This document shows, one piece after another, positions 11,355 through 27,357 of a stretch of DNA of 64,000 nucleotides (positions are counted from its first letter, which is position 1; each line of letters starts with the position of its first letter). The position numbers and the translations under genes were made by a program. Under the pieces are notes generated by a model. It worked only from the letters and a program-made list of their open reading frames with translations. It made no database searches and was not told the origin of the DNA. The DNA is from Seohaeicola zhoushanensis (GTDB taxonomy: Bacteria; Pseudomonadota; Alphaproteobacteria; Rhodobacterales; Rhodobacteraceae): positions 584,955 to 648,954 of the forward strand of contig NZ_BNCJ01000002.1 in assembly GCF_014656415.1 (NCBI RefSeq). Direction: 5' to 3'.

Positions 11355-11560
11355 GGACGCTGGTGCCCGGAGGCGGTTTCTTCGGGTGAAAAGGGAATGC
11401 GACAGGGGAGAACAGCCCCAAGCGCAGCCGCCCCCGCGACCGTGACCGGAGAGGTCGCCCGCAGCCACTGGTCCCGACGGGGCCGGGAAGGCAGGGCAGC
11501 CGCCAGGGAAACCTGACATCCGCAAGCCGGGAGACCTGCCAGCAGCGACGACGACGTGAA
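11355..11560 (+). promoter_or_regulatory. Cobalamin riboswitch 1 (leader of the cob operon)
   Basis: The conserved landmarks occur in order: GAAAAGGGAA (11388-11397), the CCCCCGCGACCGTGA core (about 11433-11447), GCCACTG (11464-11470), GGGAAGGC (11485-11492) and the B12 box AAGCCGGGAGACCTGCC (11524-11540). It senses adenosylcobalamin and turns down the operon. A possible -35 TTGACA lies at 11323-11328. No U-tract terminator follows; an anti-Shine-Dalgarno hairpin (11603-11630) suggests control at translation. Confidence 0.93.
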
Positions 11561-11635: not shown

Positions 11636-12013
11636 GTGACCACGACTGCCGCGACCGAACTGCTGGTCTGCACCACCTGCCGGATGGGCCTGCCTGTCAT
11701 CGAGGGCGAGCCGCGCCCCGGCGCGCGGCTGCTGGCCGAGCTGGAGACGATGGACTGGCCCGAGGGGCTGACGCTGAAGCCGGTCGAATGCCTGTCGAAC
11801 TGCGATTCCGGCTGCTCGGTCGTGCTGCGCGGCGGCCCGGCGCGCTGGACCTATGTCTATGGCCGGCTCGACCCCGAGAAGGCCGCGCTCGTGCACGAGG
11901 GCGCCAGCCGCTATCACGCCACCGCCGACGGGCTGGTGCCCTGGCGCGAGCGCCCCGAACATTTCCGCAAGAACTGCATCGCCCGAATTCCCCCGCTGGA
12001 GATCCCCGAATGA
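11636..12013 (+). CDS. DUF1636 metal-binding protein (cobalamin-linked)
   Basis: About 125 residues. LLVCTTCRMG (Cys12, Cys15) and ECLSNCDSGCSVV give a Cys pattern like thioredoxin-like [2Fe-2S] ferredoxins; DUF1636 members are regularly found next to cobW/cobN and are thought to bind metal. I chose GTG 11636 because GAAGGA ends 9 nt before it; an ATG 9 nt upstream (11627) is the alternative but sits directly against that Shine-Dalgarno. It is the first gene after riboswitch 1 and overlaps cobW as ATGA. A paralogue lies at 26995-27357. Confidence 0.85.
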   Translation: MTTTAATELLVCTTCRMGLPVIEGEPRPGARLLAELETMDWPEGLTLKPVECLSNCDSGCSVVLRGGPARWTYVYGRLDPEKAALVHEGASRYHATADGLVPWRERPEHFRKNCIARIPPLEIPE

Positions 12014-23925: not shown

Positions 23926-24644
23926 CCGGATTCGTGAGCTTTGTCGGCTCGGGGCCGGGCGACCCGGAGCTTCTGACCCTGAAGGCGGTGGACCGGCTGA
24001 AACGGGCCGACGCCGTGCTGTTCGACGACCTGTCCTCGGGGCCGATCCTGGCCCATGCCCGCCGCGATGCCGACCTGGTGGGCGTCGGCAAGCGGGCGGG
24101 GCGGCCCTCGCCCAAGCAGGACCACGTGAGCCAGCTTCTGGTCGACTACGCCCAGGACGGCGCGCGGGTGGTGCGGCTGAAAAGCGGCGACGGCGGGCTT
24201 TTCGGGCGGCTGGAAGAGGAGTTGGTGGCCCTGCGCGCGGTCGGCATCCCCTACGAGATCGTGCCGGGCGTGCCTTCGGCCTGCGCGGCGGCGGCGGCGG
24301 CGGGCATTCCGCTGACCCGGCGGCTGACCGCGCGGCGGGTGCAATTCGTCACCGGCCACGATGTCACCGGGCAACTGCCCGAGGGGTTGAACCTCGCCGC
24401 GCTGGCCGACGCCGAGGCGACGACGGTGGTCTTCATGGGCAAGCGCACCTTCCCGGCGCTGGTCGAGATGCTGGTGGCCCATGGGCTGCCCGAAACGACC
24501 CCTGCGCTGCTGGCCGAAGCGGTGAGCACGCCCGAGCAGGCGATCAGCCGCACCACCCTGGCCGAACTGGCCGAGCGGCTGAAGGGCGCGCTTACCAATA
24601 CGCCGGCGCTGATCCTCTACGGCCCGCTGGCCGAGGAGGGCTGA
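23922..24644 (+). CDS. cobA: Uroporphyrinogen-III C-methyltransferase CobA
   Basis: A 240-residue SUMT that makes precorrin-2, the branch point from haem to cobalamin and sirohaem. GSGPGDPELLTLKAVDRL, RLKSGDGGLFGRLEEE and VPGVPSACAAAAAAGIPLT are the canonical motifs. It is a stand-alone SUMT without the CysG dehydrogenase/ferrochelatase half. Overlaps cobB by 4 bp and cobF by one base (TGATG). Confidence 0.96.
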   Translation: MTGFVSFVGSGPGDPELLTLKAVDRLKRADAVLFDDLSSGPILAHARRDADLVGVGKRAGRPSPKQDHVSQLLVDYAQDGARVVRLKSGDGGLFGRLEEELVALRAVGIPYEIVPGVPSACAAAAAAGIPLTRRLTARRVQFVTGHDVTGQLPEGLNLAALADAEATTVVFMGKRTFPALVEMLVAHGLPETTPALLAEAVSTPEQAISRTTLAELAERLKGALTNTPALILYGPLAEEG

Positions 24645-25384
24645 TGCGCGAGCTGCTTCTGATCGGCATCGGCACCGGCAACCCCGAGCATGTCACGCTT
24701 GCCGGGGTCCGGGCGATGCGCACCGCCGACCTGATCCTGATTCCGCGCAAAGGGCCGGACAAGGCCGATCTTGCCGACCTGCGGCACCAGATCTGCGCCT
24801 CGGCGCTCGAAGGTGCTGCAACCCGGATCGTCGAGTTCGACCTCCCGGTGCGCGATGCCTCGGGCGACTATCGCACCGGCGTCGACGCCTGGCACGACGC
24901 CATTGCCGCCGCCTGGGGTGCGGCGATCGAACAGCACCCGGAGGCGCGAACCGTCGCGCTGCTGATCTGGGGCGATCCCTCGCTCTACGACAGCTCGTTG
25001 CGCATCGCCGCGCGCATTCCCGAGCTGCGGGTGAAGGTCATCCCCGGCATCACCGCGCTGCAGGCGCTGACCGCCGCCCATGCCATCGCCGTGAACGAGA
25101 TCGGCGCGCCCTTCATCGTCACCACCGGGCGGCAGCTTCGCGGCCAGGGCTGGCCGGCTGGGGTGGATACCGTGGCGGTGATGCTCGACGGCTCCTGTTC
25201 CTTCCAGGCGCTCGACCCCGAGGGAATCGACATCTGGTGGGGCGCCTATCTCGGCATGGCCGAAGAGATGCTGATTTCCGGTCCATTGGCCGAGAGGTCG
25301 GCGCAGATCCTGTCCGAGCGCACAGAGGCGCGCGCGAACCATGGCTGGATAATGGACATTTACCTGCTGCGCCGCCGCCGCTGA
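24644..25384 (+). CDS. cobF: Precorrin-6A synthase (deacetylating) CobF
   Basis: A 246-residue tetrapyrrole methylase that methylates C-1 of precorrin-5 with loss of acetate; CobF is specific to the aerobic pathway. GIGTGNPEHVTLAGVRAM, LLIWGDPSLYDSSLRIA and VIPGITALQALTAAHAI are the conserved motifs. It is the last gene of the operon. The second riboswitch begins just downstream, so transcripts that read through would carry it as a 3' element. Confidence 0.95.
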   Translation: MRELLLIGIGTGNPEHVTLAGVRAMRTADLILIPRKGPDKADLADLRHQICASALEGAATRIVEFDLPVRDASGDYRTGVDAWHDAIAAAWGAAIEQHPEARTVALLIWGDPSLYDSSLRIAARIPELRVKVIPGITALQALTAAHAIAVNEIGAPFIVTTGRQLRGQGWPAGVDTVAVMLDGSCSFQALDPEGIDIWWGAYLGMAEEMLISGPLAERSAQILSERTEARANHGWIMDIYLLRRRR

Positions 25385-25409: not shown

Positions 25410-25625
25410 CGGTGCGGGATACACCAAAAGGGCCTGGTGTCCGGCGGATGGTCCGTCGGGCAATTGGGAATTCGGTGCGGAGGGCCCCTCGGGGCCGCCA
25501 ATGCCGAAGCCGCCCCCGCGACTGTAAGCGGCGAGCGTCTGTCGAATAACCACTCGCCCTGGGCGGGGAAGGCCGACAGCACGCAGCGACCCGCGAGCCA
25601 GGAGACCGACCAGGCCGAAACGGAC
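25410..25625 (+). promoter_or_regulatory. Cobalamin riboswitch 2 (leader of cbtBA)
   Basis: Landmarks in order: TTGGGAATTCGGTGCGG (25464-25480), GCCGCCCCCGCGACTGTAA (about 25509-25527), CCACT (25550-25554), GGGGAAGGC (25564-25572) and the B12 box CGCGAGCCAGGAGACCGACC (25592-25611). A small hairpin CTGTC/GACAG (25633-25648) follows and touches the Shine-Dalgarno AGGAAGGAG of cbtB, suggesting translational control. It should shut off cobalt uptake when B12 is plentiful. Confidence 0.93.
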
Positions 25626-25661
25626 TAGAACACTGTCGGGTGTGACAGGAAGGAGATAGAC

Positions 25662-25832
25662 ATGAACGCAATTGCAAGAACCGCGGCCTCTGCGCGCGCC
25701 GGTCTGGTGCAGGCCCTTATGGTCGCCGCTCTGGGCCTTGGTGTGGTGATGGTCGCAGGTCACCTGCAGGCATCGGCCCTGCACGACGCGGCACACGACG
25801 TGCGCCACGCGACCGGTTTCCCCTGCCACTAA
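25662..25832 (+). CDS. cbtB: Cobalt transporter subunit CbtB
   Basis: A 56-residue membrane protein. One transmembrane helix (about 14-34, LVQALMVAALGLGVVMVAG) is followed by a His-rich C-terminus with the CbtB signature HDAAHDVRHATGFPCH, likely a cobalt site. A strong Shine-Dalgarno AGGAAGGAG precedes the ATG. It follows riboswitch 2 and is one base from cbtA. CbtAB systems are B12-regulated cobalt importers. Confidence 0.94.
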   Translation: MNAIARTAASARAGLVQALMVAALGLGVVMVAGHLQASALHDAAHDVRHATGFPCH

Positions 25833-25833
25833 T

Positions 25834-26526
25834 ATGGCTTCCAGACTGCTGACCAGCGCGTTGTTCGCTGGATTCTGCACAGGGCTGATCGCGGCCCTGC
25901 TGCAGTTCGTTTTCGTACAGCCGGTGCTTTTGCACGCCGAGCTCTACGAGTCGGGTCAACTTGTGCATTTCGGGGCCGAGCCAGTCTCGGCGCACCCCGA
26001 TCTGGGCGGCATCGACGTGATGCGCGACGCCCTCTCGGTGCTCTTCTCGGCGCTGGTCTATACCGGCTATGCGCTGGTGCTGGTGGCACTGATGTCGCTG
26101 GCCGAGGCATCGGGGGCCAAGATCACGGCCCGGACGGGCCTGATCTGGGGTATTGCCGGCTTTGTCGCCGTGCATTTCGCGCCGGCGATCTCGCTGCCGC
26201 CGGAAGTGCCGGGCGTGGCGGCGGCCGATGTCGTCGCGCGCCAGGTCTGGTGGTTCGCCACCGTGGCGGCGACCGGCGTGGCGCTGGCGCTGATCGCCTT
26301 CGCGCGCAGCTGGGCGGCCTGGGCCGTGGCGGTGGTGCTGCTGCTGGCGCCGCACCTGATCGGCGCGCCGCATCCCGACAGTTTCGCGGGCACCGTTCCG
26401 CCGGAACTGGCCGCGATGTTCGCCTCGCGGGCGCTGGGTGTCGGGCTCGCCGCCTGGGTGGTGCTGGGATGCCTTGCCGGGCACTTCTGGCAGCGCGAGG
26501 GCCTTCGCCAGAACGCGGCGGCCTAG
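25834..26526 (+). CDS. cbtA: Cobalt transporter subunit CbtA
   Basis: A 230-residue integral membrane protein with about five to six hydrophobic helices, e.g. LLTSALFAGFCTGLIAALLQ, LVYTGYALVLVALMSL and IWGIAGFVAVHFAP. The VHFAPAISLPPEVPG and LIGAPHPDSFAGTVPPELA segments are typical of CbtA. With CbtB it is predicted to carry cobalt into the cell. Cotranscribed with cbtB under riboswitch 2. Confidence 0.93.
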   Translation: MASRLLTSALFAGFCTGLIAALLQFVFVQPVLLHAELYESGQLVHFGAEPVSAHPDLGGIDVMRDALSVLFSALVYTGYALVLVALMSLAEASGAKITARTGLIWGIAGFVAVHFAPAISLPPEVPGVAAADVVARQVWWFATVAATGVALALIAFARSWAAWAVAVVLLLAPHLIGAPHPDSFAGTVPPELAAMFASRALGVGLAAWVVLGCLAGHFWQREGLRQNAAA

Positions 26527-26529
26527 GCC

Positions 26530-27015
26530 ATGCTCGACCGCGGATTGGCGCTCTTCGGGATCGGACTCGTCTTTGGTGGCGGGTTCGGTTTCCTCACCGC
26601 CGCCGGCATGGGCGTCACGCTGGACGGGCACGACCATGCCACCGGCCATGGCCATGCCGAGGCACCTGCGCATGACCATGCACATGCCGATCCGGTCGAG
26701 ATCGCGCCCGGCGGCACCGTGCCGGGCGTGACCCTCGCCGCCCTGCCGGATTCGGCAGGCGGCTGGAACGTGCATGTTGCCGTCAGCGATTTTACCTTCT
26801 CCCCCGAAAACGCGGGGCAGGGCGATGTCGCGGGCGAGGGGCATGTGCACCTCTACCTCGACGGCGAGAAGGTCGCCCGGGTCTATGGCCCATGGGTGCA
26901 TCTCGGCGCAGGGCAACCCGGGCAGGTGCTGAGTGCGGCGCTTTACTCCAACGACCACCGCCCGCTGACCAGCGGCGGCGTGCCCATCGAGGCCTCAGTC
27001 ACACTTGGTCAGTGA
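26530..27015 (+). CDS. Membrane-anchored His-rich protein downstream of cbtBA
   Basis: A 161-residue protein I do not recognise as a named family. An N-terminal hydrophobic segment (about 5-30) is an uncleaved anchor or signal peptide. It is followed by a His-rich stretch (34-52) with seven His residues in HxH pairs (GHDHATGHGHAEAPAHDHAH). The rest is a beta-rich periplasmic-looking domain with GHVHLYLDGEKVARVYGPWV. Three bases after cbtA and under riboswitch 2, it is plausibly a periplasmic cobalt-binding partner of CbtAB. Its last 21 bp overlap the convergent DUF1636 gene. Confidence 0.75.
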   Translation: MLDRGLALFGIGLVFGGGFGFLTAAGMGVTLDGHDHATGHGHAEAPAHDHAHADPVEIAPGGTVPGVTLAALPDSAGGWNVHVAVSDFTFSPENAGQGDVAGEGHVHLYLDGEKVARVYGPWVHLGAGQPGQVLSAALYSNDHRPLTSGGVPIEASVTLGQ

Positions 27016-27357
27016 CGGCACCCGCGCCCTGAGGTGAAAGCGTATCTCTCCGGCGGGTCGTGCGTCTTCGATCCAGCCGGCGGGAGTGTCGAGATACAGA
27101 CGGCAGAAGGCGGCGATGTCGCCTTCGGGCCAGTCCGGCGGCAGGTCGGAAAACACGTAGGACGCCCGCCCCTCTGCCTGAACCGCGATGCTGATCGGTG
27201 TCTCGCAGCCGCCGAAGCAGGCGAACTCCCCAACCTGAGCCATGATCCCCGCCGCCGCCAGTGCCACCTGGACGCGCGCGGCCTCTTCCAAGGCGCTGCC
27301 GCATTCGCGCCGGCAGGTGGAGCAGACGAGCAGGCGCAGTTCTGGGGTATTGGTCAT
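26995..27357 (-). CDS. Second DUF1636 metal-binding protein
   Basis: A 120-residue paralogue of the first cob-operon gene. LLVCSTCRRECG places Cys12 and Cys15 exactly as in the copy at 11636-12013, and FACFGGCETPISIAV supplies the second Cys pair. The two copies differ widely elsewhere. The ATG at 27357 (MTNTPELRL) was chosen to match the paralogue's length. It converges on the His-rich gene with a 21-bp overlap and lies at the far end of the cobalamin locus on the other strand, outside both riboswitches. Confidence 0.82.
   Translation of the reverse strand: MTNTPELRLLVCSTCRRECGSALEEAARVQVALAAAGIMAQVGEFACFGGCETPISIAVQAEGRASYVFSDLPPDWPEGDIAAFCRLYLDTPAGWIEDARPAGEIRFHLRARVPSLTKCD

Follow-up and report, generated by a model that had tools for sequence, protein, structure and literature searches.

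The window, a stretch of 64,000 nucleotides of Seohaeicola zhoushanensis DNA, harbors several cobalamin-synthesis genes (cobW, cobN, cobG, the gene of a CbiE/CbiT protein, and cobF) and two B12 riboswitches (11359–11543 and 25418–25628). The second riboswitch opens an operon of the order riboswitch–cbtB–cbtA–X, in which X is a small, previously unclassified membrane-anchored His-rich protein. The features of this region are listed below, each with the evidence on which its assignment rests.

24644–25384, + strand: cobF, precorrin-6A synthase, just upstream of the second riboswitch (TIGR02434, 311.8 bits)
25418–25628, + strand: cobalamin (B12) riboswitch ahead of cbtB (RF00174, 102.9 bits, E 1.2e-24)
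25662–25832, + strand: cbtB, small membrane subunit of the predicted cobalt transporter (PF09489, 66.8 bits)
25834–26526, + strand: cbtA, membrane subunit of the predicted cobalt transporter (PF09490, 162 bits; TIGR02458, 244.1 bits)
26530–27015, + strand: X, His-rich protein with a membrane anchor, proposed to act as an accessory that captures cobalt in the periplasm (open reading frame; cbtB–cbtA–X order in related loci)
26545–26607, + strand: Gly-rich membrane segment of X (GLVFGGGFGF), residues about 6–26 (hydropathy; motif in 50/50 cobalamin-linked X domains and 0/40 others)
26629–26685, + strand: His-rich linker of X, residues 34–52, seven His (His count; no variation at H34, H36, and H48 across an alignment of 15 homologues)
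26719–27012, + strand: Ig/FnIII-like beta domain of X, residues 64–161, with conserved H105, H107, H124, and H143 (pLDDT; His conservation)
26995–27357, − strand: DUF1636 protein (PF07845, 58.6 bits; start at 27357 likely by eye, the open reading frame reaching 27411)

The 161-residue reading frame of X starts 3 nt behind the cbtA stop codon (26524–26526), exactly as an earlier reading of the DNA, made from the sequence alone, had described it, and the RF00174 match upstream of cbtB confirms the placement of X under riboswitch 2. CbtB scores 59.4 bits against TIGR02459, slightly below the cut-off of 64.4. The DUF1636 gene runs toward X, and the two genes overlap at the 3′ end of X. A second DUF1636 gene (11660–11995, + strand) lies between riboswitch 1 and cobW, so that both B12-riboswitch regions of the window have a DUF1636 neighbour.

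Sequence and Predicted Structure of X

X has one hydrophobic segment, whose best 19-residue Kyte–Doolittle mean (1.87) is reached from residue 6. Its twelve His are located at residues 34, 36, 40, 42, 48, 50, 52, 82, 105, 107, 124, and 143. When the residues of X were shuffled 20,000 times, 47 of the resulting sequences had at least seven His in any 19-residue stretch, the density counted in the linker. The exact positions of the linker His vary among homologues, with the three invariant residues named above coming from a 15-sequence alignment. In the AlphaFold model, a beta domain extends from about residue 56 to the C-terminus; 106 residues have a pLDDT of at least 90, and the helix content amounts to one turn of three residues. 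Residues 1–35 and 37–51 fall below a pLDDT of 50, and because of this low score it is hydropathy and conservation, rather than the model, that support the membrane helix. The four elements of the sequence-only reading, namely a single N-terminal membrane segment, seven His between residues 34 and 52, a beta-rich domain with further His (four of them conserved), and an unrecognised protein, are therefore all borne out.

As to the last of these, comparison of X with Pfam and NCBIfam gave nothing above cut-off, and PHROGs gave nothing at E ≤ 0.01; the plasmid records examined annotate it as a hypothetical protein. Fold searches with the model returned mostly FnIII/Ig-like structures, none at E ≤ 0.001 and with a best Z of 9.0, and no clear match of a solved metalloprotein was present among the structures listed by the fold and PDB searches. 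Since this fold is very common and no match stands out, the matches are uninformative on function. Sequence matches in the PDB (a photosystem subunit at E 0.06, amylases, a zinc ATPase) were weak or irrelevant and were discarded.

Association with cbtBA and the B12 Riboswitch

Profile searches for X and CbtA were conducted across 295 genomes of the host family, the window's own included. The X profile matched 74 places in 68 genomes, and CbtA was found in 85 copies in 83 genomes. Of the X-domain places, 31 follow a cbtA match at a distance of 18–140 nt and share its strand, which leaves 54 of the 85 cbtA copies without an adjacent X. The sequence-only reading would have been refuted by homologues lying mostly away from cbtAB. 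On this point the full-length protein and the beta domain differ: 30 of the 32 full-length X (matches from start to end, the window's copy counted) are directly downstream of cbtA, whereas 43 of the 74 places with an X domain are elsewhere, two of them full-length X (G185 and G165). The 31st cbtA-linked place, not among the full-length matches, belongs to G217 (L070 4077–4193), where the copy of X following cbtA retains only the membrane helix and a DGHDH stub, with no beta-domain match.

Among 385 class-level genomes, the only full-length X outside the family occur in G670, G334, and G358, all in the order cbtB–cbtA–X and one of them with cobF next. A phylum-level draw of 299 genomes contained two more full-length X of the host family (G835 and G859), both linked to cbtBA, and none from outside it. 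A scan of genome contigs with just six peptide patterns yielded 17 relatives. All eleven alphaproteobacterial ones (L008–L018) have cbtA and X in tandem with a convergent DUF1636 gene, and cbtB was seen in ten of them, the eleventh contig beginning within cbtA. The others (L019–L024, from Actinomycetota, Planctomycetota, Chloroflexota, and Microthrix records) match X mainly in the beta domain and showed no cbt genes in the stretch examined. Finally, 48 plasmid records have an X match, and the gene context was examined in five: cbtB–cbtA–X is present in the Pontibrevibacter (12.2 kb) and Leisingera records, X follows a 5′-shortened cbtA match in the Roseibium record, and the X domain occurs in other settings in Sulfitobacter and Phaeobacter. 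The Pontibrevibacter plasmid is mobilizable, and its riboswitch–cbtB–cbtA–X–DUF1636 segment (L001 4629–6653) forms a compact cobalt-uptake cassette.

The recurrence of DUF1636 raised the question of its membership in the X system, which was rejected. The gene stands at the same place in 11/11 of the loci L008–L018, but in only 6/13 cbt-linked loci of another set, and it is found in 213 of the 295 family genomes as against 68 with an X-domain match, so that it is mostly independent of X.

RF00174 was detected in 12/14, 14/16, and 10/10 X-bearing cobalamin loci in three scans, corresponding to 33 of 37 distinct places, as three places were scanned twice. The two misses of the first scan are a contig starting inside cbtA and a plasmid with a shortened cbtA match; those of the second are L066 and L094. 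The riboswitch is also present in 9 of 10 X-less cbtA loci and thus goes with cbtBA generally instead of being special to X. Such control predicts synthesis of X under B12 shortage, and this points to a role in uptake more than to one in detoxification.

Association with Other Cobalt Transporters

The two full-length X that do not adjoin cbtA both lie in B12-riboswitch operons of other cobalt-transporter families. In G165 the order is riboswitch–HupE (PF04955, 105.5 bits)–X–cobW, and in G185 it is riboswitch–CbiM (PF01891, 64.3 bits)–cobF–X. G678, which belongs to the genus of G185, shows the latter order as well; a third member of that genus (G676) has cobF–X, and neither a transporter nor a riboswitch was detected in the adjoining stretch examined. 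A further genome of the genus (G677) has a match of another type, beside a gene that appears YHYH-like by eye, and the fifth (G675) has no X match. No additional HupE-linked X was found in 20 relatives of G165, and the HupE case therefore stands alone. In a tree of the beta domain, however few its columns, the HupE-linked X groups with the cbtBA-linked X of G032 (SH-aLRT 99), which suggests a change of transporter around X.

In these genomes X stays with cobalt genes where the importer differs. The proposal of a third CbtAB component accordingly stands in one part and falls in another: X is encoded with cbtBA under the same riboswitch, but it is neither present with most CbtAB nor exclusive to CbtAB. 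Because more than half of the cbtA copies have no X, and HupE and CbiM operons contain it, "fixed CbtAB subunit" describes X less well than "portable accessory of cobalt import under B12 control", one most often found with CbtBA.

Conserved Features and Distribution of the Beta Domain

The feature that separates cobalamin-linked X from other proteins with the same domain is the Gly-rich membrane motif (GLxFGGGxGF type). Across 90 distinct X domains it is present in all 50 linked ones and in none of the 40 others, with a pattern composed after inspection of the sequences and a linked set made up of 48 domains labelled beforehand plus two (L188 and L189) found to be cbtBA-linked afterwards. The 40 other domains are spread over 38 loci, whose stretches of 3.3–10.7 kb gave no match to cbtA, cbtB, cobF, DUF1636, CbiM, HupE, or cobW at E ≤ 1e-5. 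Conservation of the domain His is similarly high in the linked form: H105, H107, H124, and H143 are kept in 48, 48, 47, and 48 of 48 linked X domains, whereas H124 is lost more often in the remaining 42 (L188 and L189 among them), where 26 retain it. In the beta-domain tree, which is built on few columns, the linked form is not one clade and requires 6 changes.

The beta domain itself is widespread without cobalt genes. It is present in a protein annotated as PCu(A)C, is joined to multi-pass membrane parts in L021 and L073, and occurs in actinobacterial lipoprotein-like proteins. Several of these settings are worth recording. Lipoprotein-like X-domain proteins were seen in L020 (4803–7086), L022 (2–2815), and L023 (4749–7482), with two X domains each in L022 and L023; all three are followed by a similar membrane protein of 441–459 residues that starts near AHGxGGRxDLPxP and that, in L020 and L022, has no Pfam match at E ≤ 0.01. 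Other X-domain types lie directly behind YHYH-type proteins (L061 3787–5318, the one locus in which PF14240 was tested, and L175 3794–5336) or behind membrane proteins that are weakly DoxX-like, just below the Pfam cut-off (L057 3767–5503 and L059 4870–6574). The host genome has a second X-domain protein of its own (L065 4315–5247, G000 contig C5). Its N-terminal part is long and resembles, by eye, that of a relative annotated as the copper chaperone PCu(A)C, and its neighbourhood gave no match to a cobalamin gene.

Relation of X to CbtA Type

In the family draw, X accompanies CbtAs of one branch. Over the 85 family copies, X-linked CbtAs are 58–100% identical to that of the window and X-less ones 36–60%. 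A quick tree of all 85 places the 31 X-linked CbtAs together with 4 X-less ones in one branch (SH-aLRT 99), which points to a probable single gain of X together with this CbtA type, followed by a few losses. An earlier tree of 54 CbtA rows, with the X-linked ones on one side (98/88), was set aside, as its sample had been chosen partly through X. The end of CbtA helix 1 differs as well, reading HAE in 28/31 X-linked CbtAs versus 2/54 X-less ones, with EGE in 27/54 of the latter.

A further contrast concerns the loop between CbtA helices 1 and 2, which contains an HxH in 0/31 X-linked but 17/54 X-less CbtAs (Fisher p 1.7e-4), a difference that essentially one evolutionary change underlies and for which an independent-pairs test gave no independent support (p 1). 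Examples of such loops, with up to 12 His, are found in L028, L030, L045, L119, L120, L144, L145, and L148. It is possible that the HxH loop of these 17 CbtAs is a cis version of the function of X. The counts agree with mutual exclusion of the His-rich loop and X, but 37/54 X-less CbtAs carry neither of the two and the contrast lacks phylogenetic independence, so that the idea was kept only for the speculative reading given next. Given the outcome of the independent-pairs test, an exchange of the loop in cis for a protein acting in trans is appealing, though speculative. The fullest form of it, in which X would be a transporter-independent periplasmic module delivering cobalt in trans to CbtBA, HupE, and CbiM, and would replace the cis His-rich CbtA loop in the X-bearing branch, is advanced tentatively and is rather doubtful as a whole.

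Proposed Function

The handing over of scarce cobalt to importers for B12 synthesis is a poorly known step in bacteria. The case for CbtAB as a cobalt transporter is built on operon evidence, on the repression of cbtBA by coenzyme B12 (43-fold, as given in a review; PMC8123684), and on a knock-down of cbtB in Methylococcus, which improved growth at 1 µM Co, as did lowering the cobalt (PMC13108547, 2026). CbtA is described in a 2016 paper as a predicted cobalt channel without experimental confirmation (PMC4771312), and over-expression of CbtAB in Methylobacterium brought no growth improvement (PMC2773004). Literature searches in an open-licence collection brought up no report of a third protein encoded in the cbtBA operon.

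The function that we consider probable for X is that of an accessory of B12-regulated cobalt import, anchored in the membrane and facing the periplasm, which would bind Co(II) and hand it to the importer. The single N-terminal helix would hold the protein in the inner membrane, with the His-rich linker and the Ig-like beta domain (H105/H107/H124/H143) presumably oriented toward the periplasm. There X may bind a metal, most plausibly Co(II), and pass it to the adjacent importer, here CbtB–CbtA. Since the Gly-rich helix is conserved, the anchor may pack against a partner in the membrane. With its His-rich linker and beta domain tethered to the membrane beside an importer, X would suit a capture-and-deliver role, for which the systems compared below are precedents. 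What was observed for X comprises its linkage in operons, its place under riboswitches, its domains and their conservation, and its presence beside three transporter families; the metal-trap idea of the sequence-only reading is plausible and better supported than before. X is not essential, since 54/85 cbtA copies, and 4/35 CbtAs even in the X-bearing branch, do without it.

This dispensability would also suit a different role, in which X buffers cobalt or protects against it, soaking up periplasmic Co(II) and limiting the damage of import with no hand-over. His-rich linkers can behave as metal sponges. Such a buffer is nevertheless unlikely, as control by the B12 riboswitch would have X made when cobalt or B12 is short, and a specifically conserved membrane helix suggests contact with a partner in the membrane.

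The same helix might instead be the main point of the protein. X would then be an assembly or stability factor of the importer, acting through contact of its Gly-rich anchor, with the His secondary or structural. Two observations favour this: the membrane motif is precisely what distinguishes cobalamin-linked X from other X-domain proteins, and the natural copy in G217, a helix with a short His stub, still adjoins cbtA. We regard the assembly role as quite improbable all the same, because one anchor type accompanies three transporter families, which argues against one specific contact surface, and because the four His of the beta domain are nearly invariant.

That the ligand is another metal (copper, nickel, or zinc) or no metal at all, X being a general periplasmic domain recruited by chance into cobalamin operons, is very unlikely: the beta domain does occur in a protein annotated as a copper chaperone and beside weakly DoxX-like and YHYH proteins, and Ang domains fused to HupE/UreJ_2 prefer Cu2+ (PMC12537917), but all 32 full-length X of the family adjoin cbtA or sit in HupE or CbiM operons under B12 riboswitches.

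If cobalt capture and delivery by X holds true, a portable periplasmic accessory common to three transporter families, and traceable by its motif, would offer a handle on the cobalt step in Rhodobacteraceae. The result also serves as a lead for naming a protein now annotated as hypothetical.

Comparison with Known Systems

One of the closest known systems is CbtAB (PF09490, PF09489; TIGR02458, TIGR02459), with which X shares the operon and the B12-riboswitch control. X matches neither Cbt family, and CbtAB is described as having two components in the literature, as far as its accessible text goes.

NikK, a DUF4198 protein (PF10670), is an accessory of Ni/Co importers and, like X, an extra component encoded with the importer. 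The two differ in layout, X having a membrane anchor and a His-rich linker and NikK/DUF4198 having its His at a cleaved N-terminus. NikK is described as periplasmic (PMC2868824), a DUF4198 protein binds Ni2+ with a Kd of 18 nM (PMC12537917), and some NikKMLQO operons adjoin B12 genes or lie under B12 riboswitches (PMC2667541). DUF4198 was considered as a hidden relative of X and rejected, with no Pfam match and an hhalign probability of 0.1% from shallow alignments of 6 and 20 sequences.

Weak likeness was encountered with two families of unknown function. DUF4399 (PF14347) matches 6/20 X-domain members (best E 0.003) and DUF6130 (PF19625) 2/20 (best E 0.0058), with no match to the X of the window in either case. 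Comparison of DUF4399 with the X profile gave an hhalign probability of 23% (5 and 20 sequences), and conserved His stretches can be aligned by eye. As a resemblance between sequences, this likeness is suggestive only, and is given here as a lead.

Another comparison is with the Ang (metal-angling) domains (PMC12537917). Ang-1 is an Ig-like beta-sandwich, and the model of X is a beta domain with FnIII/Ig-like matches, albeit of weak statistics; Ang-1 and Ang-2 are non-cytoplasmic, and each works with a permease for metal. In their case domain and HupE/UreJ_2 permease form one fused protein and an N-terminal His is used, whereas X is a separate chain of 161 residues whose first His is residue 34. 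No Ang entry was among the matches listed by the PDB sequence search with X.

CbiN of CbiMNQO offers a further parallel as a small membrane partner, with an extracytoplasmic loop over the metal pocket of CbiM (PMC7689651). It consists of two helices and a short loop, while in X a single hydrophobic segment precedes the His-rich linker and the beta domain. With no kinship implied, NikK, DUF4198, CbiN, and the Ang domains may all be regarded as analogues of X.
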